DNA of 64,000 nt from Xanthostigma xanthostigma (lineage: Eukaryota > Arthropoda > Insecta > Raphidioptera > Raphidiidae): NCBI GenBank assembly GCA_963575645.1, contig OY754464.1, positions 65,136,948-65,200,947 on the forward strand. Reading direction: 5' to 3'. Positions 191 through 55,799 of the stretch are shown in pieces; position 1 is the stretch's first letter, and each line of letters begins with the position of its first letter. Position numbers and translations under genes: made by a program. The notes beneath the pieces are model-generated. The model saw only the letters and a list, made by a program, of their open reading frames with translations, searched no databases and was not told where the DNA came from.

Positions 191-268
191 CTGTATTTGG
201 AAAAAAATCCGTGGCATAAGGATCGAAAATGAAGCAATACTGAAATTTTTTAAACTTGCATTTAATAA

Positions 269-321
269 TGACGTTTCGATACGTTTTGTATGAAGATGAT
301 ACAAAACATATCGAAACGTCA
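269..321 (+). repeat. Hairpin with a hammerhead-like core
   Basis: Positions 269-291 and 299-321 are inverted repeats of 23 bases with one mismatch. On the plus strand the sequence reads ATGAAGA, a possible 4-bp stem (GATA/TATC), then GAAACGTC. This matches the hammerhead-like motif seen at 34389-34423, except that the first C of CTGAAGA is an A. No target duplication is evident. Confidence 0.4.
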
Positions 322-2303: not shown

Positions 2304-5150
2304 TTATTCATATTTTAGTAAATTCTTTGATTTGCTTTTAACTTTAAAAATGGATGAACAATATAAATCCAACCAGATAGCATTAACATTGCACAGTTCA
2401 GATAATCTATGCACTACACTCTTTTTTTGACCATCACGCAATGTTGGAATCAGAAAATAATAATTATTCGACCTGAGACTTCTAGGAGGAATATATAAAC
2501 TAAATCTATACAATAATTCTGAACAATCAATCAAACCAGAAAAGATCTTAAAGGCAAATAATATGTCTGCTCTATCTCTGGCTGATTCCAAAGTACTAAT
2601 ATTAAACAATTTATAAATCGAAGAAAAGTCATGGTTCGTATAGTGCAAAGCATTACCCGTTTTAAACGAAGCGTATCTAAGGTACAAAGTATTTAATGAC
2701 TCAATCTTTTTAATTAGACCTTTCTCATGAGGTCTCCAAACAGTTGAAGCGTACATAAGTTTTGAAAAAATAAATGAGTAATATAATGTACGAAAGGTGA
2801 GAATAGATTTGAATAAAAATGAAAATCTTTTTATAAAGTAAATTTTTTTGCGTATTTTAATATCAAGGTGCTCTATATGATACTTAAATGACATTTTGGA
2901 ATCAAATATCACTCCTAAATCTTTGATATATTCTACTCTTTTAAGAGGGCTATTATTAATATAATAATCCATTGACTGGATGAGATGACTTCTTCCGAAT
3001 CTAATCGTAAAGCATTTTTTTGCATTGCATTCCATTCCATTTAAACTACACCATTCTTCAAAGGAGGCGATATCCAAACGTAACAGCATCATATCTTCCG
3101 GAGTTTCAATAGCTTTGAATAATTTAGTGTCATCAGCAAAAAGAGATATATTGCAATATGATATGTTATTAACAATATCATTAATGAAAAGCAAAAAAAG
3201 TAAGGGACCCAAATGAGTGCCTTGACCCACCCCCGATAATACCTCAAAAATATAAGATACAAAGTTTTGCAACTTAACGATTTGTTGTCTACCGTTTAAG
3301 TAAGAGTCGAACCATTGTAGCATGGTACCAGTAGTTCCATACGCATACAATTTTCTAATTAACAAGTTAAGATTGACTAAGTCGAAGGCTCTAGAAAAGT
3401 CAATGTATATTGAGTCAACTACTTTATTTAAATTAAGATTTTCATAAATAAATTCCGAATACACTAACAGGTTCGTAACTGTTGAACGTCCCTCGAGAAA
3501 CCCATGTTGATGGGGTGTAATAAATTTTCGGAAATATGGGTAAGACTTTATGTAAACAAGATAATCGAACATCTTTGCAAAGACCTTGTACTTGTTAATC
3601 GGCCTATAATTATTGATATCAGTAGGATCACCTCCTTTGAAGAAAGGCGAAATATAAGAAATTTTCCAACAGAGTGGAAAAATCCCCAACTTAAGCGATA
3701 AATTAAATAAATCTAATAGCCAATGTTTAATTTCATTACTACAATTAATGACTAGAAGTGGGTGAATTTTATCCGGGCCAGGACTGCCACTGGAGCATAA
3801 ATTATCTATACATCCGTTAATGTCCGCCATGCTTAAAGAAATATTACTAAATGAATCTTTTATATCAAATGGAATTATAGTGTTACTGAGGTCTAAATTG
3901 CGATAAACACTACTAAATTTATTGGCAAATAGATTTGCACTATCTTGGAGGTTATCAGCCATTTGACCATCAAAGTGAAGCATTGACGGTATAGTACTGG
4001 AAGAGTTTAGATTATTCACATATTTAAAAAAGTTTTTGGAGTTATTTTTTATTGAATCCTCTGTGAATTTCAGGTAAGCTTTTTCATCCTTAGTAGCCGG
4101 CAGTTTAGCAAAAGCTCTGTCTTTTTTGAAGCAATTAAAATAATAGTTTGAGTTATATTGTTTATATAATTTATGGGATCTTTTTTTAGTAATGATTGCT
4201 GCTATTAACTCATTAGAATACCAATGGGGAAATGATCTAGTTTTAATACTGAAAGTAGGTACAAAGTCATTAATGAGTTCAGAAAATTTATTTTCCAGAT
4301 CTGAGACGAAGTTATTAAGTGAGGTTGCATCATTAACTGAATTTGGAATAAAAATGCCATTTAGCTGACGGGAAATTTCAGAAAAGTTTGCTTTTTTGTA
4401 ATTAAGAATAACTAAATTTTGTGGATTGAAAGTTACTTTATCAATAATAAAAGAGATTGAAAGAGGGGAATGAGCTTCGTCACATTTTAATAGAAAATCT
4501 TCACTAAGTTCAGACAAAGCATCATAACAATTTGTAAATATTAAATCTAACAAATTTCCAAAATTATTCTTAATATTATTCTGTTGTATTAATTTGTATG
4601 ATTGACACCATTTAGATAGAAGGAATGCAGCTTCTCTAAAATTTACATTAGGATGATAACCATTAGCAGTAGAGTAATTAAATTCAGTTAACCAATCAAA
4701 ACCAGGAACATTAAAATCACCTACTAAAATAAACTTTGTATTAACATTATCCTTATCAAATAAAATATCTCCAAGAGATGTCTGTAAGCATTCTATTAAT
4801 TCTTCATAATACTCAGATTTTGAGTTGGGAGGGATGTAACAAGCCCCTAAAACCACAGAAGATTCATTACAAAATACCTTAATAAGAAGTAGTTCAACAC
4901 AAGGATTACTAATCAATAACTTTTGAGTTTTAAATTTATCTTTAACCGCAATTAGTACACCTCCTCCATCTTTTTTAGGACTTGTTAATGCAGAGCGATC
5001 ACATCGATATAAATTATAATTACATAAACCCAGTTCAGAGTCACTGATATCCTCATTGAGCCAAGTTTCCGAAAGAATGACTGCATCAAAGTCTTGGAGA
5101 AATCCAATACCAGAACGAACTAGATTAAGTCTACCACGGATACTGTGCAC
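2304..5150 (-). CDS. LINE ORF2: endonuclease and reverse transcriptase, intact
   Basis: This 948-codon frame encodes an apurinic-like endonuclease followed by a reverse transcriptase, used for target-primed retrotransposition. Endonuclease marks are ETW at residues 28-30, GDFN at 144-147, a DLIFTN segment near 202-207 and EAHSPL near 225-230. Reverse-transcriptase marks are SPGPDKIHP near 456-464, QHGF..GRST near 548-556, YIDFSRAFD near 582-590, GQGTHLGPLLF near 642-652 and the catalytic FADD at 671-674. No frameshift or stop interrupts it. The first codon of the listed frame is GTG, not ATG. The frame is actually open for 14 more codons upstream, up to the TAG that ends ORF1, and those codons (ending YQN) look like the normal start of the endonuclease fold. 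There is no methionine before residue 390. ORF2 is therefore probably translated by TAG readthrough, reinitiation or a non-ATG start. The clade is CR1/L2/Jockey-like; finer placement needs a tree. Confidence 0.93.
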   Translation of the reverse strand: MHSIRGRLNLVRSGIGFLQDFDAVILSETWLNEDISDSELGLCNYNLYRCDRSALTSPKKDGGGVLIAVKDKFKTQKLLISNPCVELLLIKVFCNESSVVLGACYIPPNSKSEYYEELIECLQTSLGDILFDKDNVNTKFILVGDFNVPGFDWLTEFNYSTANGYHPNVNFREAAFLLSKWCQSYKLIQQNNIKNNFGNLLDLIFTNCYDALSELSEDFLLKCDEAHSPLSISFIIDKVTFNPQNLVILNYKKANFSEISRQLNGIFIPNSVNDATSLNNFVSDLENKFSELINDFVPTFSIKTRSFPHWYSNELIAAIITKKRSHKLYKQYNSNYYFNCFKKDRAFAKLPATKDEKAYLKFTEDSIKNNSKNFFKYVNNLNSSSTIPSMLHFDGQMADNLQDSANLFANKFSSVYRNLDLSNTIIPFDIKDSFSNISLSMADINGCIDNLCSSGSPGPDKIHPLLVINCSNEIKHWLLDLFNLSLKLGIFPLCWKISYISPFFKGGDPTDINNYRPINKYKVFAKMFDYLVYIKSYPYFRKFITPHQHGFLEGRSTVTNLLVYSEFIYENLNLNKVVDSIYIDFSRAFDLVNLNLLIRKLYAYGTTGTMLQWFDSYLNGRQQIVKLQNFVSYIFEVLSGVGQGTHLGPLLFLLFINDIVNNISYCNISLFADDTKLFKAIETPEDMMLLRLDIASFEEWCSLNGMECNAKKCFTIRFGRSHLIQSMDYYINNSPLKRVEYIKDLGVIFDSKMSFKYHIEHLDIKIRKKIYFIKRFSFLFKSILTFRTLYYSFIFSKLMYASTVWRPHEKGLIKKIESLNTLYLRYASFKTGNALHYTNHDFSSIYKLFNISTLESARDRADILFAFKIFSGLIDCSELLYRFSLYIPPRSLRSNNYYFLIPTLRDGQKKSVVHRLSELCNVNAIWLDLYCSSIFKVKSKSKNLLKYE

Positions 5151-5192
5151 ATTTTGGTAAAATAACTTGAATTGTAAGGGGCTTCCGTAATC

Positions 5193-6035
5193 CTATTCTT
5201 GAGAGTTAGCAGGTGTATTTTTTTTCTTGACTAATTTATCAACACAAATGGTGGGGACACCTCGTACATATTTAATGAAGATCCCTTCTTCGCCTTGTTC
5301 TAAACGAGACTTGAGTTCATTAACAATACTGGAGCGATATTCTCTCTGTTGACGAGTAAGATCGGCTGATATAGCAATATCTGACTTATTGCATAATCTT
5401 CTCTTATTATGAAAAACCCAATGAACGTCTTCTATAGATGGCAATGTAACTTTAACAGGCCGAGTAACTTTATTAACAAACTTATTACCCATACGAGAAA
5501 CGATTATATCGTTGATATTAAATGATGGCTGACTATCACCTTGACTTAAAACTTCGATGACCTTCTGTTTGTCCGAAATTTCATCATTAGCTGCATCCCG
5601 TAATTTATAAATCATGATATTCTTTGCACGTGAAAGTCTGTCATGGATTTCGGCGATGACATCTTCTGATTTATGCAATGCATTCTCCTCCAAAATATCC
5701 AGTCTTTGTTCAACATCAATTATCTTTGTTTTTAGGTTATTGACTGATGCAACAATGTTATTAAAATTGTCATCAATTTTTTTAGATAGAAGCTTAAAAA
5801 GTATTTTAGAATTATTATCAAATTCATCTAAATCGGATGAATCACTGGATATGTCAACAGAATGATTAGGATCTGCATTTCCATTATTACAGCAAGCATT
5901 AAATGTACCGTCAACCCTGGGTTTAGCCTTCTTTGCACAAGAGGGATGAAAAAAGGAATTACATCCAGTACATTTGGTAGCATCTTCTGTCAAAGTAGCT
6001 ACTTTTCTCGGGCATAAAAAACACTTGAAAGGCAT
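5193..6035 (-). CDS. LINE ORF1: zinc finger, coiled coil and RRM-like RNA-binding protein
   Basis: This 280-residue protein is the expected nucleic-acid-binding partner of ORF2. The N-terminus has a PHD-like cluster: C5, C8, C22, C25, H30, C33 and C48/C49. An acidic linker follows near 58-75, then a coiled coil near 78-135 with heptad-like leucine and isoleucine spacing. The C-terminal half resembles L1-type ORF1: NIMIYKL near 139-145, IIVSRMG near 177-183, TRPVKVTL near 191-198 and ADLTRQQRE near 224-232. The start ATG at 6035 lies just after a purine-rich GAGAAA. The protein ends in TAG at 5193-5195, and ORF2 continues in the same frame after it. It is intact, so the copy may be young. Confidence 0.88.
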   Translation of the reverse strand: MPFKCFLCPRKVATLTEDATKCTGCNSFFHPSCAKKAKPRVDGTFNACCNNGNADPNHSVDISSDSSDLDEFDNNSKILFKLLSKKIDDNFNNIVASVNNLKTKIIDVEQRLDILEENALHKSEDVIAEIHDRLSRAKNIMIYKLRDAANDEISDKQKVIEVLSQGDSQPSFNINDIIVSRMGNKFVNKVTRPVKVTLPSIEDVHWVFHNKRRLCNKSDIAISADLTRQQREYRSSIVNELKSRLEQGEEGIFIKYVRGVPTICVDKLVKKKNTPANSQE

Positions 6036-6355
6036 TTTCTCAAAAGCCCGTTACACTATGCACGTTTAAATTTGTAGGTTAGGTTTTAAATTAGAAAAGA
6101 TTGAATGTTTTCAACACTCTAATTATCTGGTTGGATAATAAAAACCAATAAAAGTTAAGAACAATAAGAATCACTAATTTACCACAATGTATTACTGATT
6201 AAAAAGAATCAAAACTATCAAAATTATTAAACTTAAGCGGAGCTAAGAGAAACACGTCTTACTCGCACCGCAGCTACAACAATTTATAAGTTATATCAAA
6301 TTAAAAATAAATTTTTGTACCCAGTTCCGAGAACGCGCCGACATTTCCCGAGCAT
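6036..6355 (-). mobile_element. Probable LINE 5' UTR
   Basis: This is the non-coding sequence upstream of ORF1. A GC-richer patch near 6320-6355 ('ccgagaacgcgccgac') abuts the inverted repeat at 6359. No clear target duplication was found, so the exact 5' end is not fixed. Confidence 0.5.
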
Positions 6356-8335: not shown

Positions 8336-8520
8336 ACTGTTAACATCAAAAAAGAACCTACAGGTGGAATGTCAGCCATTATCTAATTAATGATTTAAGG
8401 TGTATTCCTTAAAATAGTGTCTGTATTATACAATGCGAAAAAAAGTTTAGAACACAAATAATCCCGAAATATACTTTTCTTTTAAAACGTTTTATGTCGC
8501 GGATTTCCAAAATTATTTTA

Positions 8521-8833
8521 TTTAAAATGTCTGACACCTCGAATATGTCGACATATTCGAGGTGTCAGACATTTTAAATCGTTCATGTTATTTGTCAGAG
8601 AACATAATTTTAGCGTTTTGGTTGAAGTTTTTAAACTATCCAATTAAAAAACAAACAGTATCTATAAATTTTACAAGTCGTCAAAACGACATGTTTCGGA
8701 AAATTTAGAGGGAAACCGCCCCAAACACAAAAAATTCATAGAGGAAATAGGTGTGAGACTAGGCCTAATGAAGCCATATACAAAGTTTGGGGAGAGTATT
8801 TGTTAGTAAAATCTTTGCCGACGGGCACTCTGA
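8521..8833 (+). repeat. Dispersed repeat Q, copy 1, opening with a 58-bp perfect palindrome
   Basis: Positions 8521-8578 form a perfect palindrome centred on GTCGAC. About 250 bases of family sequence follow, ending 'gacgggcactctgac'. The same sequence occurs inverted at 41595-41935, where the palindrome is longer but imperfect. The nature of the family is unknown; it may be a non-autonomous DNA transposon with a palindromic end. Confidence 0.6.
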
Positions 8834-10275: not shown

Positions 10276-10454
10276 CAAATAAATAAAATTGTCGACCATT
10301 TTGTTTTTCAGACTATATATTGACAAAAAATAATATAAAAATATAAATCAATATACCTATTTTTGTATTATTTTTTGTCAATATATAGTCTGAAAAAAAT
10401 TGGTCGACAATTTTATTTACTTGAAGAGTTCTATTCAGACGTTAATCAAAGATT
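10276..10454 (+). mobile_element. Palindromic PLE-like element, copy a
   Basis: The left arm starts CAAATAAATAAAATTGTC. The right arm is its inverse and is followed by a tail of about 35 bp ending 'gttaatcaaagattt'. The flanks 10262-10275 and 10455-10468 are a 14-bp direct repeat with mismatches (AAATTTGATATT versus AAATTTGGTATT). The same arms, tail and duplication length recur in several other copies. Confidence 0.7.
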
Positions 10455-10544
10455 TCAAATTTGGTATTATTATTGTTAGGACACGCCCATTGCTGGTAAT
10501 GTAAGAAAAATTTATTTTCAAAAAATTCACCGTCGGGACTCTAA

Positions 10545-16881: not shown

Positions 16882-17177
16882 CAATAAATAAAAATATAAA
16901 AAATAATTAATATTTAATTTCTAATTCGCTTTATATAAAATTTTTTTAATATTAATTAGAGTCAAAATATTTTTTCAATATTTTGATTCTAATTAATATT
17001 TTGAAAGAATTTTATATAAAGCGAATTAGAAATTAAATATTAATTATTTTTTAGATTAGTTCTGAAGAATTGAAACGTTAATGTATTAATTATATTTTTT
17101 GTTAATATATTGTCTGATAAATTGGTCGATAATTTTATTTATTGAAGAGTTCTAATCAGACGTTAATCAAAGATTTG
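16882..17177 (+). mobile_element. Palindromic PLE-like element, copy e, with hammerhead-like core
   Basis: The 14-bp duplication TATATTATTTTATT (16868-16881 and 17178-17191) is exact. The 5' end starts CAATAAATAAAAA and the 3' tail ends 'gttaatcaaagatttg'. The centre holds a separate near-perfect inverted repeat (16900-16965 against 16980-17051). On the plus strand 17068-17086 reads CTGAAGA, three bases, GAAACGTT: the hammerhead-like core with stem II lost. Confidence 0.75.
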
Positions 17178-17191
17178 TATATTATTTTATT

Positions 17192-19847: not shown

Positions 19848-20228
19848 CTAGCGGAAAGGTCCGGCTTCGGCCGAATTTGTAGATTGCCACTGTTTTTCGT
19901 CGACTTATACGTTGCAAAATTTGTCTCCACTAAAAGCTCTTTTATTTTAACGCGATAAATGTTCATTCTAAATATTGGTGAAAAAAATGTTGAAGTCAGA
20001 TGAGTAGTTTTGGAGATTACCTCCTACACTCAAATCTTTGATTAACGTCTGATTAGAACTCTTCAATAAATAAAATTATCGACCAACTTTTCAGACAATA
20101 TATTAAGAAAAAATATCAATATTTTTTGTTAATATATTGTCTGAAAAATTGGTCGATAATTTTATTTAATGATGATTACCTCCTACATCCAAACTTACAC
20201 ATTTTACCTATTTATAAATTAGCATAGA
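19848..20228 (-). mobile_element. Helitron-like element, family B, copy 4, interrupted
   Basis: On the minus strand it starts TCTATGCTAATTTATAAATAGG and ends in CTAG (19848-19851), matching the intact short copy at 53006-53246. It is interrupted by a palindromic element at 20029-20173 plus one duplicated 14-mer. Removing that insertion restores the family B sequence. Confidence 0.65.
20029..20173 (-). mobile_element. Palindromic PLE-like element, copy b
   Basis: It is inserted in a Helitron-like copy and flanked by an exact 14-bp duplication GATTACCTCCTACA (20015-20028 and 20174-20187). The tail is on the left ('caaatctttgattaacgtc') and the arms are inverted around 'aaaaaatatcaatatttttt'. 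Because the host element is known, both ends are well fixed. Confidence 0.8.
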
Positions 20229-22377
20229 ATACTATGCAACTTTGGAACATTCTCTGCGTTAATGTAAATGACAAAAATCTTATACAAATAAAATATAGAC
20301 TCTGACACGGAGGTAAAGTGTTGCAGAATCTGAATCTGTGAAAAAAACATACGCTGTTTTTTGAAAAATCAAAGTTGAGTTTTAGAAAGTTCATTAATTC
20401 ATGAATTAATTACTTCATGTTCTTTCCCCCTCAAAGTTATGCAACTTTTGTCCCAAAACATTGCTTTTTATCTGGTGTTTAGGTTTCAAAATATTCTTGA
20501 AATGAAAACTCGGTTTGGGCTCGTGTAGTTTTAATACAACTAGCTAATTATGTTTCTAAATAATTAATTATATTTTTTTGTTCCAGGTAAGCAAAATACA
20601 AGTAGAAATATGTGAGTTGGAATATAATCTTATTTTTATTTTATATATTTATTTTTTTATGAATTTTTATTTAACTTTTTATTTGGAACTATTTAACAAC
20701 AAAAAAAGAAATTAACAAATCGATAATTTCATTTCAAATAATCAACTTATTAAGATTTATAAATTTAATATACATTTGTACGACAACCAGCCCGTCAATT
20801 TATCAGGCTCGATGTCCTTTACATTTATAAATTAGCTTGCGAAAATGTGTCTTTATTCTGCATTATTTTTTTAATTGTTTTTTGTTGTTTTGATAACTGA
20901 AATGGTAAAATATCAATAAACAGTTGTTCGTGACATTAAATAATGTGCAAATATTTATTTACAGTTAAATTTGAGCAATAATTAATATAAATTGCCTACT
21001 CTAATTTAAAAAAGAAAACATACACAAGAGACTTAAAATGTAGCGTAATTCAAGCCCGATAAAATTCAGGATCGACATTCTATGTTGCATAAACGGAATT
21101 TACCTTCCAGTCGTTAGGGGGGGTCAATAATCTGGATTTCTGACCTCCTATGTGTCTTAACAAACTCATAAAAATTGAGCAGTTGCCATAAAAATGTTAG
21201 TAAACGTATCATTTAGTGAAATAACAATAAATCGGCAATTCCAGATTTCCTACAGAATGAATAAGTCATCTAAACAATTCCGAATGCAATCTAACAGATC
21301 TTTCTAAACATCAAAATAATATGGCACAACTAATTTTAATTCTTATTACTAACGCCAATATTTGTCTTTATTTTTTATTTAATTCAACATTGTTGATGAG
21401 ATGGTGTTTTTGTTACGCAGTGAAAAGCGAAGTGGATATGGGGTCGTTCCTTAAAAAACTATTAGAGGGTGCTATTGATGCGATGGTGTTTTAGAAATTA
21501 CCAATGTATTTTTGACCATAAATAGGGTCATTCCTAACATTATTTTCTTTTAATAATATCGATTGACCGCAAAGTGGGACGATAACTGTTCTGGCCGCAA
21601 GTGGCACTATTTCTCCCGAACAGGTTTTTTTCTTCGTGCTGTGCCGGTCGTTCAGGTTCATGCTTAACAAGTGTGCGCGGCCTTTTACCAGTTTAAAATT
21701 TCAAATCTAAAATTTGTCCACATTATTTTGTCTATGGACGTCAGGACTAGATGTGTAGAAGTTCTACTGTGCTATGCTAATACGTTTTTGTTATGATTTT
21801 TTTTACAATATTTAGAATTTATATAAGTAATATAGAAAAAAATAAAACTCGAAACAACATAATATGTCGAGAACGTTTCAGTTTTATGGTGACAATTTTT
21901 CACCAAACTTAATTTTCGCTAAAATTTTTGCAAATAAAAAATAACTGAGTAATTTAGATCTATTGCATTGTATTAGTACACTCGTCTCTATTTCACTCTA
22001 TCTTTGCGTAGGGATGTCCAGCTTGACTAGAATAAATTTATTAGTTTTTTTAAGATATTTTTTCATTAAACAATTCTAGACATCTCAAAAATTGTTACTT
22101 ATTTAAAATTGAGAAAATTTTCGTTGGAGATATCTTCAAATTACCTAAAAGATCTAGAATAAAAGCGCAATTTGAATTGCGAAATTATTAGTTGACGTTT
22201 CGTGAAAAATATATCCTCAGAGCTCAAACTCGTTATTAATTATTATGGGAAAAAATACTATAGTATTATTTAATTTTGATTCCTTAATGATCCTAATACG
22301 TAGTTTTTGTTGACTGGCAAGTTTTTTAAAACAAGACGCTGATGATCTCAGCTGTTGAGCATCTATAATTTACAATT
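20229..22377. other. AT-rich stretch with no recognised gene
   Basis: No coding exon, RNA gene or bounded transposon could be supported over this 2.1 kb. Host regulatory or intronic DNA would look like this. Confidence 0.5.
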
Positions 22378-22919: not shown

Positions 22920-23137
22920 CAAATCTTTGATTAACGTCTGATTAGAACTCTTCAATAAATAAAATTATCGTATTATTATTTTTTCAATTTAATTAATAAC
23001 TTTGAACGAATTTTATAAAAAAACTAATTAGAAACTAAATATTAATAATTTTTTATACTTTTATACGTTAATGTATTAATTATATATTTTTTGTTAATGT
23101 ACTGTCTGAAAAATTGGACGATAATTTTATTTATTGA
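22920..23137 (-). mobile_element. Palindromic PLE-like element, copy f
   Basis: The tail is on the left ('caaatctttgattaacgtc') and the tail-less arm on the right ('gataattttatttattg'). The flanks ACACTGTATATATT (22906-22919) and ACACTTTATATATT (23138-23151) are a 14-bp duplication with one mismatch. The centre is AT-rich. Confidence 0.75.
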
Positions 23138-31669: not shown

Positions 31670-31682
31670 GTTAATAGTAAGT

Positions 31683-31865
31683 ATATATTATATATCGTGT
31701 CCATCGAGATAATTATTAATAAAAATCGCAGGATTGTGGACAAAAAGTTATTTATTTAGTGTATGACGTTTCGTCTATAAATTTAGACTTTTTCAAGTAC
31801 AAATGTGAAAATTTAAAACAATAATTATATTTTGTCCACAATCCTGCGATTTTTATTAGGTAATA
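31683..31865 (-). mobile_element. Hairpin element with hammerhead-like core and 13-bp duplication
   Basis: Arms 31719-31747 and 31830-31858 are inverted ('atcgcaggattgtggac'). A tail of about 35 bp (31683-31718) lies outside one arm. GTTAATAGTAAGT flanks the unit at 31670-31682 and 31866-31878. On the minus strand 31797-31763 reads TTGAAAA, A, stem GTCTA/TAGAC, GAAACGTC. The layout is that of the CAAATAAAT family but the sequence differs. Confidence 0.65.
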
Positions 31866-31878
31866 GTTAATAGTAAGT

Positions 31879-32587: not shown

Positions 32588-32811
32588 TTTTTTTTAATTT
32601 ATTATTTCGTGTATTTTTATTTTTTGTTGTTGTTTTAATTAAATCAGGTGTCACAATATAGTTTAATAATTATCAATTCTCTGGAAGTGGCAATGCCAAG
32701 TTGGCGTAATGATAATACAACTCTACTATTACAATTTTATTGATAACTATGAACTTTGGATATTGCTGAATTTTTTTCTCGGTCTCACAAAGAATAACGT
32801 TTAGAATTCTA

Positions 32812-32978
32812 TGATGAAGTTAACGGGATACAAGGCTAAATTTTAAAACAATATTTATTTAATAGCACTTCATTTAATAGTCAACGTTTCGGCAAACAAT
32901 TATTGCCTTCTTCAGGACTTTAAAAATGTCTATTAAAAGTCACAAGTTAAAAACATAAATTAATTTAAAAACATGATT
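32812..32978 (-). mobile_element. PLE-like short element with hammerhead-like core and 13-bp duplication
   Basis: GTTTAGAATTCTA flanks it exactly (32799-32811 and 32979-32991). On the minus strand the centre (32921-32884) reads CTGAAGA, A, stem GGCAA/TTGCC, GAAACGTT. The rest is AT-rich, with a 3' end 'ccttgtatcccgttaac'. It is 167 bp with no coding capacity. I infer a Penelope-like terminal-repeat derivative. Confidence 0.7.
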
Positions 32979-33298
32979 GTTTAGAATTCTAGTATCAAAT
33001 ATGAAAAACCTCGTGACTAGACAAAGGTTAAATGACATAAAGACCGCATGTATACAGTATTTATGTGAAATCAGCTGTTTCTAACGGTTTATAGATTTAA
33101 AAATAAACAATCAATGACAATAAAACAGCTATCTAAAAATAGTTACTTCTATTGTTGACTTTGTGTATAAAACGCAACAGTTGCACAAATATTTCATTTG
33201 TGAATGACGCGACTTTACTTGTACGAGCATTGTTTCGTGTGTCCACTTAAAGCTGTTGCATAGTACACCTGATACGGTAGATACAGTATGAATCATGA

Positions 33299-33880: not shown

Positions 33881-34289
33881 AATTAAATGTTTTTTTTATG
33901 TTAATCGATTTGGTAACTAATTGAGCTAAAAAATATTAATGGGTCATCAATTTAAAGCTTTGATAATACTAAAATAAAATCGTAGGGCGCATTTAGTAGA
34001 AAACGTTCTTTTGTCTTCTTCGACCTTAATATTACTAGATGCGCCCCATGATTTTAATTTAGTCTAATCAGAGCCCCAGATTGGTGATCCATTATTATTT
34101 TCTAGCTTTTAGTACACTATCGATTGTAGGTATATTATGATTGTTTAACTTTAAAAATGTTTTACCTGTTTTTTCAATGCAATTTTGAACATTGGATCAT
34201 AGACAGTCGTACATTAATTTTTTACTTAATAATTTTTTTACAGTTTCAGAAAGAATATAAGAAAATACGATTTATATTATTCGTACACG
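33881..34289. other. No recognised feature
   Basis: AT-rich, no supported feature. Confidence 0.4.
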
Positions 34290-34881
34290 AATAAGAAATC
34301 GTTCAAATAAATAAAATTGGCGACCAATTTTTTTCAGACTAAGTACTATAATATATTGACAAAAAATAAAATTATAAATTATTAAAAGATGACGTTTCGA
34401 TCCGGATTTGAATCTTCTTCAGGTTTAAGAAATAATTTTTGATTGGGACTGTACCTACTTAATTAATTATCGAAAATTAATGAAAAATTAATAACAAACA
34501 ATTTTTTAATAAGTAGGTAGACATGGATATCTAAGTATCTAAAAATAAAGAAAAAATTCATTAAAAAACAAAATATTATTTCAAAATAATATCATAAATA
34601 TTACTTAAATTTTCCGTATCTAATTAAGCATTAAGAGAATTTTTATTGGATTTTATATAATGGGTTGTCCGATAAGTTCTTGCCGTTTTTTTAAATTAAA
34701 AAATTAGCGATCGAAATGAAATTTTTTGGTATAATGTTTTGTGTTATTCGAAAGAGAATTTTTCGCTCTACAAGAAAGTCTATTTAGTTTTTTTGTTTGG
34801 ATTCATTTTTGTTAATTTTTAGAGCATTTAAATGGAGTGTCAAGTCGACAAAAACGAGCATTTTCGACACCACCTTCTTTT

Positions 34882-36361
34882 GGTTCCACCACGAAATCTC
34901 CCCGGACAAAATCTCCCCGACAAAATCTCCCCGACAAAATCTCCCCACGACAAAATCTCCCCACGACAAAATCCCCCCCCGTCAAAATCTCCCCACGACT
35001 TAATCTCCCCATTTGCCCCTTCCCGTTTCACTTCGAGACAATTCGCATACCCGTTTATCGTTCTCCCCGGAATTGTTTTTTTAAAAACTCCACATTTGCC
35101 CCTTCCCGTTTCACTGCGAAACAATTCGCATACCCGTTTATCGTTCTCCCCGGAATTGTTTTTTTAAAAACTCCACATTTGCCCCTTCCCGTTTCACTGC
35201 GAGACAATTCGCATACCCGTTTATCGTTCTCCCCGGAATTGTTTTTTTAAAAACTCCACATTTGCCCCTTCCCGTTTCACTGCGAGACAATTCGCATACC
35301 CGTTTATCGTTCTCCCCTGAATTGTTTTTTTAAAAACTCCACATTTGCCCCTTCCCGTTTCACTGCGAGACAATTCGCATACCCGTTTATCGTTCTCCCC
35401 GGAATTGTTTTTTTAAAAACTCCACATTTGCCCCTTCCCGTTTCACTGCGAGACAATTCGCATACCCGTTTATCGTTCTCCCCGGAATTGTTTTTTTAAA
35501 AACTCCACATTTGCCCCTTCCCGTTTCACTGCGAGACAATTCGCATACCCGTTTATCGTTCTCCTCGGAATTGTTTTTTTAAAAACTCCACATTTGCCCC
35601 TTCCCGTTTCACTGCGAGACAATTCGCATACCCGTTTATCGTTCTCCCCGGAATTGTTTTTTTAAAAACTCCACATTTGCCCCTTCCCGTTTCACTGCGA
35701 GACAATTCGCATACCCGTTTATCGTTCTCCCCGGAATTGTTTTTTAAAAAACTCCACATTTGCCCCTTCCCGTTTCACTGCGAGACAATTCGCATACCCG
35801 TTTATCGTTCTCCTCGGAATTGTTTTTTTAAAAACTCCACATTTGCCCCTTCCCGTTTCACTGCGAGACAATTCGCATACCCGTTTATCGTTCTCCCCGG
35901 AATTGTTTTTTAAAAAACTCCACATTTGCCCCTTCCCGTTTCACTGCGAGACAATTCGCATACCCGTTTATCGTTCTCCTCGGAATTGTTTTTTTAAAAA
36001 CTTCAAATTTGCCCCTTCACGTTTCACTGCGAGACAATTCACATACCCGTTTATCGTTCTCCCCGGAATTCTTGTACATGTAAACACTTAATGAGCATAA
36101 AATAATTTACAACAGCTATATCTATGTCACTACAGATGGCATCAAATGACAATTTCGTTTAAATTTCTACATTATCAACTATCAACATGTTTTGATAGAA
36201 AATTAATGTTATAATCAATAAAATTTTATCGTGGGGAGATTAAGTCGTGGGGAGATTTTGACGGGGGGAGATTTTGTCGTGGGGAGATTTTGTCGCGGGG
36301 AGATTTTAGAGGGGAGATTTTGTCGGGGAGATTTTTTCCGGGGAGATTATGTCGTGTCACC
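34882..36361. mobile_element. Foldback element with 9-bp target duplication
   Basis: CCTTCTTTT flanks the element at 34873-34881 and 36362-36370. The ends are long inverted repeats built of short 'acaaaatctccccacg' units (about 34890-35010 and 36230-36355). The interior is an 83-bp tandem array plus about 160 unique bases. The duplication length is certain because excision restores the mariner reading frame. Long inverted repeats made of tandem subunits with 9-bp duplications recall Drosophila Foldback elements and MULE-type transposons. There is no transposase. Confidence 0.8.
35012..36072. repeat. Thirteen-copy 83-bp tandem array
   Basis: Units start 'tttgccccttcccgtttcac' at 35012, 35094 and every 83 bases to 36007. 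Most differ at only a few bases. Each ends with 'ggaattgttttttta'. The reading frames crossing it are not conserved as protein, since 83 is not a multiple of 3. It lies wholly inside the foldback element. Confidence 0.95.
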
Positions 36362-36618
36362 CCTTCTTTTTGCGTTTAACCGAGGTGCCAAAGCCACGGA
36401 AGCTGCTAGAGAGATTTGTGCCGTATACGGAGAGGGTTCCATAGCTGAAAGAAAAACAAGCGACCCCGCGAGCGAAGCAAGATCTTCATCCACGGAAGAC
36501 AATGTTGTGTGTATTAATTTAAAAAAACGGCAAGAACTTATCGGACAACCCAATATAATTTTATTTATTTGAAGAGTTCTATTCAGACGTTAATCAAAGA
36601 TTTGAATAAGAATTAATA

Positions 36619-43602: not shown

Positions 43603-44230
43603 TTTAAACCCTCTATAACAAAACTCAATCGAGTTTTTTCTTTCGTTATAAAGAGTATTCGTTATATAGGGATTTGAAAAAAAAACACAAACACATTTTT
43701 ATTTCAAATATTTGATTAACGTCTGAATAGAACTCTTCAAATAAATAAAATTGTCGACCAACTTTTTCAGATAAATATGGTCGATAATTTTATTTATGTG
43801 AAAAGTTCTATTCAGACGCTAATCAAATATTTGAACACTTTTATTTCATTTGTATAACTAGATATTACATTAATTTCTAAAATTAGTAGATAGACTGACT
43901 CCTAAACGCCTTCCAACATAACTTTTTTCACCTTTTTCTATTGCACGAATCATAGACACATTTTTGTCAACGAACAATGTTTTTTTTACTAGCCATATTT
44001 ACATTTCAAAAATCAATTCACAACGTACGAAAGTGTGTTTGGTATTGCACCCCAAACTTATCACAATGCATTCCTACCCATTATAATTAATTATTAGTGA
44101 AATGTAATAAACAATTAATTACAAACAAAAATTACACAGATTTCTAAATAAAGACGTATTGTTTCGTTATAGAGAGTGTTAATAGGTACGGCAATATCGA
44201 TTGTTATAAAGGAGCTCGTTTTAAAGAATA
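43603..44230. repeat. pogo/Tigger-like fragment, interrupted
   Basis: 'Acagtttaaaccctctataac' at 43602-43622 and 'ttcgttataaagagtattcg' look like a terminus of the same family as 1-190. Similar 'gtttcgttatagagag' sequence lies at 44160-44176. A PLE-like copy is inserted at 43705-43833. No right terminus is clear. Confidence 0.4.
43705..43833. mobile_element. Palindromic PLE-like element, copy d, symmetric
   Basis: Both ends carry the family tail here ('caaatatttgattaacgtc' left, 'gctaatcaaatatttg' right), around inverted 'ataaataaaattgtcgacc' arms. The flanks ACACATTTTTATTT (43691-43704) and AACACTTTTATTTC (43834-43847) resemble a diverged 14-bp duplication. Confidence 0.65.
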
Positions 44231-48849: not shown

Positions 48850-50030
48850 GCACATACCGTTAAACTAGCGGTATGTGCTTTATTATCGCTTTGCGCGTCA
48901 GAGCTGACTTTCGATCATATAAGAAGTTATATCTAAATAAATTTAACACGAAATCCATTCAAATTCAAGCTTTTTGAAAAGAGGTGATTCTGATCTGTAA
49001 AACAGAACAATTTTTAAATCCATTCGAGTTGTTGTAATTGAAAATCACGAACAGCAGTTGTCGGTTTGTTCTGTACGTATGTACGTCCGAGCTCTACGGA
49101 TCGCAATGTTGGTCAGATTGCCTTGAGTTATATTTTATTCATTTTGTTTACTATTAGACCAGAACCCTATTTAAATTCACTAAAATGTGTTGAGTAGTTT
49201 AATTTTTATAAACAGTTTTATTTTATTATTTTTGACAGCTAATAGTTAAAAATAGTTGGCAAAACCAAAAGTGCACATCCCGCAAGTTTTCCACTGTACA
49301 TATTATAGGTAATGAAAAAAAATTGAGAAAATAGATTTAAAAAAACCAATTAAAAAAATAGAAAAAAAATTAAAAGCAAAATGGAATAGAAAAAAATTAT
49401 TACTTGTGTCAGCGGGAATCGAACCTGGCACCTTGCTATGGACCAACGCTTTTAACCGCTCGGCCATTCCGATATCGAAGCTTGCGTTGTTATTGTGGTA
49501 TAGCAGTGTAGCAGGTATTCTACGTAATACACTACATAATATTTTACAATAACAGTAATAGGTATTTTTTTGTTTTTTAAGGTTTTTTATTTTAACTATT
49601 AACTGTCAAAAATAATAAAATAAAACTGTTTATAAAAATTAAACTACTGAACACATTTATGTGAATTTAAATAGGGCTCTGGTCTGATACTAAACAAAGT
49701 GAATAAAATATAACCCAAGGCAATCCGGCCAAAATTGCGATCTGTAGAGTCGTGACGTACATACGTACATACGTCCATACGTACATACGTACAGACCAAC
49801 CGACAACTGCTGTTTGTAATTTTCAATTACAATTTTAATAGTATTTATGAACTCGAATTGATTTAAAAATGGTTCTGTTTTATAGATCAGAATCTCCTCT
49901 TTTCAAAAAGCTTCAATTTGAATGGATTTCGTGTGAAATTAACTTAGATATAACTTCTTATATGAACGAAAGTCAGCTCTGACGCACAAAGCGACAATAA
50001 AGCACATACCGCTAGTTTAGCGGTATGTGC
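48850..50030. mobile_element. 1.2-kb foldback element with terminal hairpins and a tRNA-like loop
   Basis: The left arm 48850-49253 and right arm 49588-50030 are inverted with high identity. Each extreme end is itself a hairpin (GCACATACCG ... CGGTATGTGC; 48850-48878 and 50002-50030). The 335-base spacer contains a tRNA-like sequence on the minus strand. No transposase and no certain target duplication are seen. Confidence 0.75.
49406..49473 (-). pseudogene. tRNA-like sequence in the foldback loop
   Basis: The minus strand reads 'aatggccgagcggttaaaag' (D-arm and A box), then 'ccaggttcgattcccgctg' (T-arm and B box). This is like tRNA-Leu/Ser or a SINE head. Acceptor-stem pairing is poor and the variable arm is unclear, so it is not called as a tRNA gene. 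Confidence 0.5.
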
Positions 50031-54690: not shown

Positions 54691-55309
54691 TTAAATTCCG
54701 TTACCTGACTAAGCCTATATTAATTGTAAATAAGTGTCATCGGCTATTGGACTTTTTCGCGACTGTATTTATCTACCAAATATTATTGTCATCCGAACTA
54801 TAGTATGCGTTCAAAAATCAAATCGATCGGATACGTGGAAGTGGGTTAAAATTAGATTAAATGATTTGACCTTAACTATATGTATAACAACTGAAGTCAA
54901 TAAATTTAAAGCTTCTAAAAATCAATTTTAAAATCAAAGACATACAATAACTTACAGTTAAAAAAAAGTTCGGAAACAATCAGTTGAATTTAATGAACAA
55001 AACAAAAACTATAACAATCTAAGTGATTGAACAAAACACTGACAAAGTCAATCTTGTTTTGTTGTAGAAATGTATTGTCATTGACTGATTCCTAGTCAGT
55101 TGTATTGAAACAGTAGACAGACGCCGCCAATATAAATGTAAATGCGTTGATACCAGCTGTTCCCTAAAAAGATTTCTAAACCAGGAAATTTGCTATGTTT
55201 TTCCGGAAAAAGTTAGGCTTTACTAATTTTTACGTGCGTCGGTTCATTTTAACATAGCAACCAACGGTTTATCGTTCGGAAACCGCATATAAATAAATAT
55301 AGTTTAAAA
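54691..55309. other. No gene; weak family D remnant
   Basis: 54750-54850 resembles the minus strand of family D ('aaatcgatcggatac'). Nothing else is supported. Confidence 0.4.
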
Positions 55310-55750
55310 AAAAACTTTTTAACAAAAAAATTAAACCGCCGAAAAACTGAAAAGCAAAAAATAATAGATCTTTTTATTTAATTAAGTTCTATCTAAGTAG
55401 TTGAACGTATGTGACAGTCTAGTATATCTAAGTAATTTTGAGTCGGCGTCAACAATCCTTCGCCGGAAATTTCTGAGCGTTCACGAAGTTAATGTCAGCG
55501 ACAGAGCAACCCTAACGGTAACACTGAGGGCACCGTCTTTGCGAGTGGTCGTATCATTTTTAATTTGATTTGGTTATTTCTTTTAGTGATCTTTGTTCAT
55601 TGATTGTTTGACGCCGACTCAAAATTACTTAGATATACTAGACTGTCACATACGTTCAACTACTTAGATAGAACTTAATTAAATAAAAAGATCTATTATT
55701 TTTTGCTTTTCAGTTTTTCGGCGGTTTAATTTTTTTGTTAAAAAGTTTTT
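55310..55750. mobile_element. Near-perfect inverted repeat with about 148-bp arms
   Basis: Arms 55310-55458 and 55603-55750 are almost identical when inverted ('gacgccgactcaaaattac', 'acagtctagtatatctaag', 'aaaccgccgaaaaactg'). The spacer is about 145 bases. High arm identity suggests a recent origin. Confidence 0.75.
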
Positions 55751-55799
55751 ATTTAATAATTTTTTGTGGCTATATAATTTAAAATTGTAATACACAACT

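Follow-up and report, generated by a model that had tools for sequence, protein, structure and literature searches.

A stretch of DNA of 64,000 nucleotides from Xanthostigma xanthostigma, in the following called the window, carries on the minus strand at 34389-34423 a short motif in which two conserved boxes enclose a pairing stem. The question raised by this locus is whether the motif is a hammerhead ribozyme and what kind of element it belongs to. A sequence-only reading had described a hammerhead-like core with a covarying stem in several unrelated copies and had pointed to the terminal repeats of Penelope-like elements. Here, the copies in the window, their surroundings and their relatives in the window's own genome (623,323,696 bases, 28 contigs) were analysed. 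Judged from its letters and its surroundings, the motif is very probably a type I hammerhead of minimal form, located in the pseudo-LTR of Penelope-like retrotransposons (PLEs).

Copies of the motif in the window

The minus-strand sequence given for the named copy proved exact, with CTGAAGA-A-GATTC...GGATC-GAAACGTC at 34392-34422, and the second copy is present on the minus strand at 32884-32915 as CTGAAGA-A-GGCAA...TTGCC-GAAACG. The third copy (31763-31797, minus strand) retains its stem and has a damaged first box, as had been described, and the plus-strand copy at 289-320 exists as a partial copy which forms half of a 23-bp palindrome. A covariance model trained on 38 genome copies found six window sites at E <1e-4; its E-values are rough, and two of the 38 training copies are the window copies 34381-34431 and 32873-32924. 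Two of the sites, 22184-22229 (minus) and 17053-17089 (plus), had been missed in the sequence-only reading. The copies are:

34381-34431, minus strand: named copy, undamaged core boxes, one G.U pair in stem II GATTC/GGATC; 52.1 bits, used in training
32873-32924, minus strand: best window copy, core CUGAAGA-A-GGCAA/UUGCC-GAA-ACGU-U; 61.7 bits, member of the training set
31755-31805, minus strand: decayed copy, stem II GUCUA/UAGAC retained, damage in the first core box; 37.8 bits, E 9.8e-9, outside the training set
22184-22229, minus strand: decayed copy with hardly any stem II; 26.9 bits, E 2.4e-5, outside the training set
17053-17089, plus strand: decayed copy, stem II deleted; 26.8 bits, E 2.5e-5, outside the training set
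291-320, plus strand: partial copy, right arm of the palindrome 269-321; E <1e-4, outside the training set

The copy first named (34389-34423) is a weak representative. Its stem I opens with a C.A mismatch and, due to this first pair, a contiguous stem I is absent. Its stem II, GATTC/GGATC, is one base off GATCC/GGATC, which by eye is the dominant stem among the matches listed for the 6026-match pattern described below, and as this difference only makes a G.U wobble it is no compensatory change. The statement that the boxes are kept and the stems change yet still pair applies across families in the genome, but not to GATTC/GGATC itself. The best window copy is 32873-32924 and not 34389-34423: stem I AGUC/GACU comprises 4 bp, a palindromic ACGU stands where stem III would be, and all sequence features of a putative minimal ribozyme are present. 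When the three minus-strand copies were folded with short flanks, only 32850-32940 exceeded its shuffles, with z -3.57 compared to +0.56 and +0.65 for the other two. The folds of 260-330 and 31717-31858 also exceeded shuffles, but as foldbacks, and the fold of 34289-34429 did not (z +1.16).

A chance resemblance in AT-rich DNA would be in line with the shortness of the boxes and with a loose stem-free pattern, for which the window holds 11 matches against 3.6 expected. Two window sites combine perfect CTGANGA and GAAACG boxes with a stem of 5 bp or longer, whereas 300 dinucleotide shuffles of the window contained 0.003 such sites on average and never two. A looser test (first box with up to two mismatches, stem of at least 4 bp) gave a small excess of four sites against 1.2, four being reached in 13 of the 300 shuffles.

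Abundance, pairing and the extra core base across the genome

The pattern CCTGAAGAAGN{4,30}CGAAACG matched 1359 times in the genome and its reversed control 0 times; the exact-box pattern CTGANGANNN{8,26}CGAAACGTC matched 6026 times and its reversed control 9 times. The sites studied were the first 100 matches of each pattern, a sample which is not random since all matches listed come from contig C1. Position N7 of the core CUGANGA...GAA was A, G, T or C among the matches listed where it was free, namely in the 6026-match pattern and the 81- and 1098-match patterns given below; the 1359-match pattern fixes it as A, and the other core letters are fixed by the patterns. An identical motif of the TCGG stem family (for example at loci L230, L234, L235 and L236) makes up 11 of the 100 matches listed for the 1359-match pattern, which suggests a young Penelope family.

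Missing covariation in a large alignment had been named beforehand as evidence against the motif. Covariation was found: in 38 aligned sites, whose rows belong to related element families and are not all independent, stems I and II in the hammerhead register scored 0.846, against 0.213 (sd 0.025) in shuffles and at most 0.207 for slid controls. Among the stems compared at the genomic sites, more than 12 different sequences nevertheless occur. In this alignment 85.3% of cells were paired against 51.4%, and 140 cells were changed on both sides against 48.1. Two of five covariation measures did not exceed the shuffles, namely pairs changed on both sides (8 against 7.8) and further pair types (28 against 28.8). 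The alignment holds 38 of 55 distinct sites, as 17 near-duplicates or decayed rows were left out by hand (window 22184, L219, L229, L231, one of two L232, one of two L233, L234, L235, both L238, L280, one of two L310, L314, L315, L319, L320 and L329).

The pairing was also counted at sites selected by pattern only. In the 56 distinct sites among the 100 listed matches of the 1359-match pattern, contiguous stem pairs beyond the fixed G-C numbered 101 of 224, against 33.8 after reshuffling of the 3' sides (maximum 56 in 2000 reshuffles); 25 of the 56 hold only the fixed pair and appear decayed. The fetched loci and the window together gave 55 distinct pattern-only sites, 23 of which have fewer than four stem II pairs and are decayed. 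Over all 55, contiguous stem I pairs summed to 151 (shuffled mean 69.5, maximum 98 in 5000), and sliding stem I by -1, +1, +2 and +3 left 3, 17, 26 and 12 pairs, respectively. Stem I pairs from 2.1-1.1 onward and has at least three contiguous pairs in 37 of the 55 sites.

The hammerhead cleavage triplet is NUH, with U at position 16.1 and any base except G at position 17. At 40 distinct sites where these letters were free, the base after CGAAACG (16.1) was T in 38 and C in 2, and position 17 was T in 26, C in 8, A in 6 and G in none, so that the letters at position 17 follow the NUH rule. Stem III is very short, as had been proposed, and is missing within a single copy. GAA is followed by a palindrome, which is ACGU in most copies, ACUAGU in L278 and ACAUGU in L283; in L276, with its imperfect stem I, GAAAUGUACAU is read by eye. 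Such a palindrome is almost too short to fold on itself, yet can pair with that of a second copy, whereby an intermolecular stem III would become possible.

These letters bear on the reading of the two-stem hairpin as a protein-binding or reverse transcription start signal of the Penelope tail, which would no longer be, or never have been, a working ribozyme here. In favour of such a signal, the motif lies 61-131 nt from the insertion end in 10 repeat-flanked pairs (see below), and the anole hammerhead can, according to passages of PMC11167929, be mutated without losing in vitro insertion. A pure binding hairpin, however, would predict neither a base other than G at position 17 (0 of 40) nor U at 16.1, and neither the stem I register (151 against 3, 17, 26 and 12) nor palindromes that vary between families; we consider it distinctly unlikely. 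The hammerhead core and the covarying stem that had been proposed hold across the genome sample.

The core deviates at one place from the hammerhead consensus. Stem II does not close directly on A9 and G12: its 5' side is separated from A9 by a single unpaired base, which is A or U and rarely C or G. This extra base, already pointed out for the window, was found in the matched genome patterns and in almost every family examined. If stem II starts with the pairs GC/GC, 81 genome matches have any extra base and none lacks it; with GG/CC, 1098 matches have an extra A, C or T and 40 lack it. The patterns with extra base admit four or three letters at that position, which could account for no more than a three- to fourfold difference. 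In the 40 GG/CC matches without extra base the best pairing was at offset zero in 8, at offset one (with an extra G) in 11 and at neither in 21. Stem II of at least 4 bp was found at offset one in 32 of the 55 sites and at offset zero in none, a comparison in which the 1359-match pattern by itself rules out offset zero for the sites that it contributed. Because the matched patterns heavily favour it, the extra base is regarded as the rule in these families.

A chance origin of the motif, already refuted by the genome-wide counts (1359 against 0 and 6026 against 9) and opposed by the window shuffles and the covariation, is rejected as having a negligible probability.

The absence of a significant match to hammerhead models had likewise been named as refuting beforehand, and here the outcome went against the motif: Rfam gave no hammerhead in the window at gathering level and none in the two main copies at E <=10. 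Likewise, no hammerhead was found in 11 genomic loci holding the motif (E <=1), nor, at gathering level, in 20 viral loci which hold three-stem hammerheads by the criteria of this analysis, three of these 20 being blank at E <=1 as well. As the 11 motif loci and the 20 viral loci are also blank, the missing match is read as a limit of the models. In another search, of 11 viral loci, only L057 matched (Hammerhead_II).

Scans of viral contigs matched phage hammerheads and no recognisable animal relative. They gave 205 distinct sites, 57 of which have stems I, II and III, 50 with and 7 without the insert; one of the two scans required the insert, so this ratio is no measure of frequency. Of the viral sites with a stem II below 3 bp, only 2 of 81 have stems I and III. 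The phage contigs suggest that the extra base is compatible with a three-stem hammerhead. At least two three-stem hammerheads each were present on the viral contigs L183, L042, L119, L120, L185 and L209, with five within 2.7 kb on L183, and on L042, L095 and L178 hammerhead motifs occur together with Rfam type-P5 twister ribozymes within about 1.4 kb. When 26 viral loci were searched with the covariance model R1, 16 matches were obtained at E <=1. The two best (2e-4 and 4e-4) fell on L064 and L056, both of which contain phage hammerheads; all others had E >0.01. Over 50 overlapping GIY-YIG loci, 26 covariance-model matches were obtained at E <=0.1, two of them in the training set. Due to the R1 matches on viral loci, weak R1 matches, including some at the GIY-YIG loci, are not trusted.

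Penelope-type insertions and their genes

The copies had been called unrelated. This was wrong, since the copies with readable surroundings sit in Penelope-type insertions. Eight window insertions have flanking direct repeats, which are 12-17 bp long with at most one mismatch in seven of them and 9 bp long, by eye, in the split insertion 34302-36603:

32812-32978, minus strand: single-sided insertion around the 32873-32924 copy, flanked by GTTTAGAATTCTA (32799-32811 and 32979-32991)
31683-31865, unstranded: foldback insertion around the 31755-31805 copy, extended by 34 nt at one end only, with GTTAATAGTAAGT on either side (31670-31682 and 31866-31878)
34302-36603, unstranded: insertion around the named copy, likely target duplication GAATAAGAA (9 bp; 34289 and 36604), by eye
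16883-17178, unstranded: foldback insertion around the 17053 copy, same family, target duplication ATATTATTTTATTC (16869 and 17179)
10276-10456, unstranded: sibling foldback insertion of two back-to-back tails, motif absent, target duplication AAATTTGATATT/AAATTTGGTATT
20029-20173, unstranded: sibling foldback insertion, motif absent, exact 14-bp target duplication GATTACCTCCTACA
22920-23137, unstranded: sibling insertion whose inverted ends are short, target duplication ACACTGTATATATT/ACACTTTATATATT
43707-43834, unstranded: sibling foldback insertion, motif absent, extension at both ends, target duplication ACATTTTTATTTCA/ACACTTTTATTTCA

Direct repeats were scored as length minus 3 per mismatch. 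The insertion at 10276 scored 9, those at 22920, 31683, 32812 and 43707 scored 11, and those at 16883 and 20029 scored 14; in 400 random placements of two 40-nt zones, a score of 9 was reached by 16 and of 11 by 9. Larger zones were searched for 32812 and 16883, and the chance of random repeats is therefore higher there. At 43707 the element's own palindromic end forms a repeat with a higher score. A search for direct repeats around the copies at 22184 and 291 gave no convincing duplication.

Seven of the eight insertions are inverted, with the tail, i.e. the stretch downstream of the motif, at both outer ends and pointing outward. In six of these seven a further 33-34 nt are present on one end only, and in 43707-43834 on both ends (by eye). 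In 34302-36603 the left arm (34302-34661) contains tail, motif and upstream part, and the right arm (36552-36603) the tail with extension. This insertion is split by a DNA transposon of 1890 bp (34662-36551) with perfect 38-bp inverted ends, which includes an 83-bp tandem array (about 35002-36131). The idea that a coding frame begins in the tail was dropped by eye, because indels between copies break the frame. An open reading frame (ORF) with both reverse transcriptase and GIY-YIG endonuclease was not seen in the window.

Other features of the window are a LINE-type element at 2304-6050 (minus strand) with an endonuclease and reverse transcriptase ORF and a separate ORF ahead of it, a perfect 60-nt palindrome at 8520-8579, and two large foldbacks. 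The arms of the foldback at 55304-55756 are about 99% alike, and the one at 48880-50000 has an exact 13-bp flanking repeat, TAGCGGTATGTGC, which may be part of the surroundings of the arms.

The same anatomy was seen elsewhere in the genome. Direct repeats of 10-19 bp (score of at least 10) flank 10 of 14 head-to-head pairs, and in all 10 the two distances from motif to insertion end differ, with a short one of 61-74 and a long one of 92-131. With random window placements of the same zones, from which the 83-bp tandem array was left out, 24 of 150 reached a score of at least 10 and 3 of 150 also had a short and a long distance. The pair in L231 is AT-rich and less certain, and a convincing duplication is missing in four of the 14 pairs (L232, L238 and both L237).

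In a genome profile search at least 37 GIY-YIG matches were obtained, with 150 of 521 candidates scored. Six proteins were scanned, of which three contain RVT_1 and GIY-YIG, two GIY-YIG alone and one a weak RVT_1 alone. Among the ORFs adjacent to a motif, L278 has RVT_1 and GIY-YIG, as has L283 with RVT_1 at 29.3 bits against a cut-off of 29.6, and L286 and L288 have GIY-YIG alone; L276, with a variant motif by eye, also has both domains. The L236 ORF lies between head-to-head motifs and contains a weak RVT_1 (20.8 bits), with YVDD and GIY-YIG-like letters by eye. In L278, L283 and L288 the distance from the ORF to the downstream motif is about 390, 330 and 410 nt, respectively. A strict full minimal hammerhead, at offset one in every case, was found in the fetched DNA of 7 of 30 GIY-YIG matches and in shuffles of the same 158 kb at 0.05 per pass; of these seven, L255 and L257 are one locus, and in L260 the motif is about 2.9 kb from the gene. 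No strict motif was present in the DNA fetched for the other 23 matches. Using a regular expression, the motif was found in 4 of 20 larger loci. The link to Penelope terminal repeats, which had been suggested from the window, is thus borne out by the insertion anatomy and by RT/GIY-YIG genes beside some copies.

Two other kinds of element have to be weighed against this anatomy. Ordinary DNA-transposon MITEs, with a hairpin that resembles a hammerhead by accident, would share the foldback shape and the inverted ends. They are rejected as highly improbable, in view of duplications of 12-17 bp in seven window insertions and of 10-19 bp in the 10 genomic pairs, a variable truncation at the centre, an extension that is mostly at one end only, and RT or GIY-YIG ORFs between or beside motifs. 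Alternatively, some copies might be non-autonomous retrozymes, i.e. small tandem repeats amplified via circular RNA, and not PLE pseudo-LTRs. Locus L313 (G000:C1:10656500-10657350) resembles a retrozyme array, with three head-to-tail units of about 218 bp and a motif in each, a length within the 170-400 nt given for retrozyme tandem units in passages of PMC7229834, and window positions 193-291 are about 95% identical to part of this unit. PLE-type inverted ends at 10276, 16883, 20029, 22920, 31683, 34302 and 43707 oppose this reading, a tandem motif array was not seen in the window, and retrozymes are a rather unlikely source of part of the copies. The pseudo-LTR of PLEs is preferred as the location of the motif.

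Comparison with known systems and proposed mechanism

Since minimal dimeric hammerheads of Penelope elements have already been published (passages of PMC7761336, PMC6155905, PMC6466107 and PMC11167929, which cite Cervera and De la Pena 2014 and Lunse, Weinberg and Breaker 2017), the motif is counted as a member of an already known kind. According to these passages the published motifs agree with the present one in having the core and stems I and II, with stem III nearly or wholly absent, and in the palindromic stem III segment, the pseudo-LTR location, thousands of dispersed copies and a proposed action as dimers. A difference may lie in the base between A9 and stem II, which the published motifs might carry as well.

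The hammerhead of Poseidon of Anolis carolinensis (PAc) is likewise described in PMC11167929 with only stems I and II and loop II, at the junction of pseudo-LTR and ORF, and with insertions stopping shortly downstream of it. The PAc ORF begins at stem II, whereas most motifs here have no start codon there by eye; ATG is present in loop II of the L278 and L283 motifs. Cleavage of the PAc hammerhead has been demonstrated, whereas for the motif here it is predicted. Moreover, the same passages report that this one PLE hammerhead cut only with protein and was dispensable for in vitro insertion, and that purified PLE protein cleaves and extends both strands, with reverse transcription starting at two adjacent internal sites.

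Hammerheads of animal retrozymes and amphibian satellites have canonical cores. The non-LTR retrozymes of animals and the amphibian satellite hammerheads are similar to the motif in being type I, the amphibian stem III being weak, according to passages of PMC7229834. The retrozymes of invertebrates usually have a stable stem III, whereas the copies here whose surroundings were read are mostly in PLE-type insertions.

Endonuclease-containing Penelope elements of Adineta vaga are described in passages of PMC3846280 with similar head-to-head inverted pseudo-LTRs, target duplications and palindromic junctions. They have an optional tail of about 31 bp at one inverted end, compared to an extension of about 33 nt here, and duplications of 8-10 bp, with none in some insertions, compared to 9-19 bp here. 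The authors of that study favour self-priming, and the word "hammerhead" does not occur in the text of PMC3846280.

The findings can be combined into the following mechanism. One intact copy would supply stem I, stem II and the core, and would lack stem III within itself. Two copies on a tandem transcript would share an intermolecular stem III through the palindrome, and the paired copies would cut each other after position 17, just 5' of the 3' strand of stem I. The unpaired base between A9 and stem II would be a tolerated bulge. For the insertions, target-primed reverse transcription from the two ends of one RNA tail would produce foldbacks and target duplications, and a two-ended insertion would, as a rule, leave an extension of about 33 nt on one end. 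The window copies would then be remnants of truncated, mostly head-to-head insertions. That two-ended priming on one RNA yields foldbacks is what we infer from the arrangement of the ends; cleavage, dimer action and a role in the life cycle of the element are likewise steps that the motif would be expected to perform. Tentatively, and with less confidence than doubt, it may further be proposed that in this lineage the hammerheads of Penelope elements have, together with a set of phage hammerheads, a core of their own with the extra base as the rule, a separate architecture which standard models miss and which would be dimer- or protein-dependent in this genome.

The Rfam models are blank on a very abundant class of hammerhead-like RNAs, and the motifs are tied to a regular two-ended insertion anatomy. 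Due to the fact that many stem families with intact copies are present in this genome, the questions of cutting, of the dimer, of the extra base and of the protein are directly testable in it.
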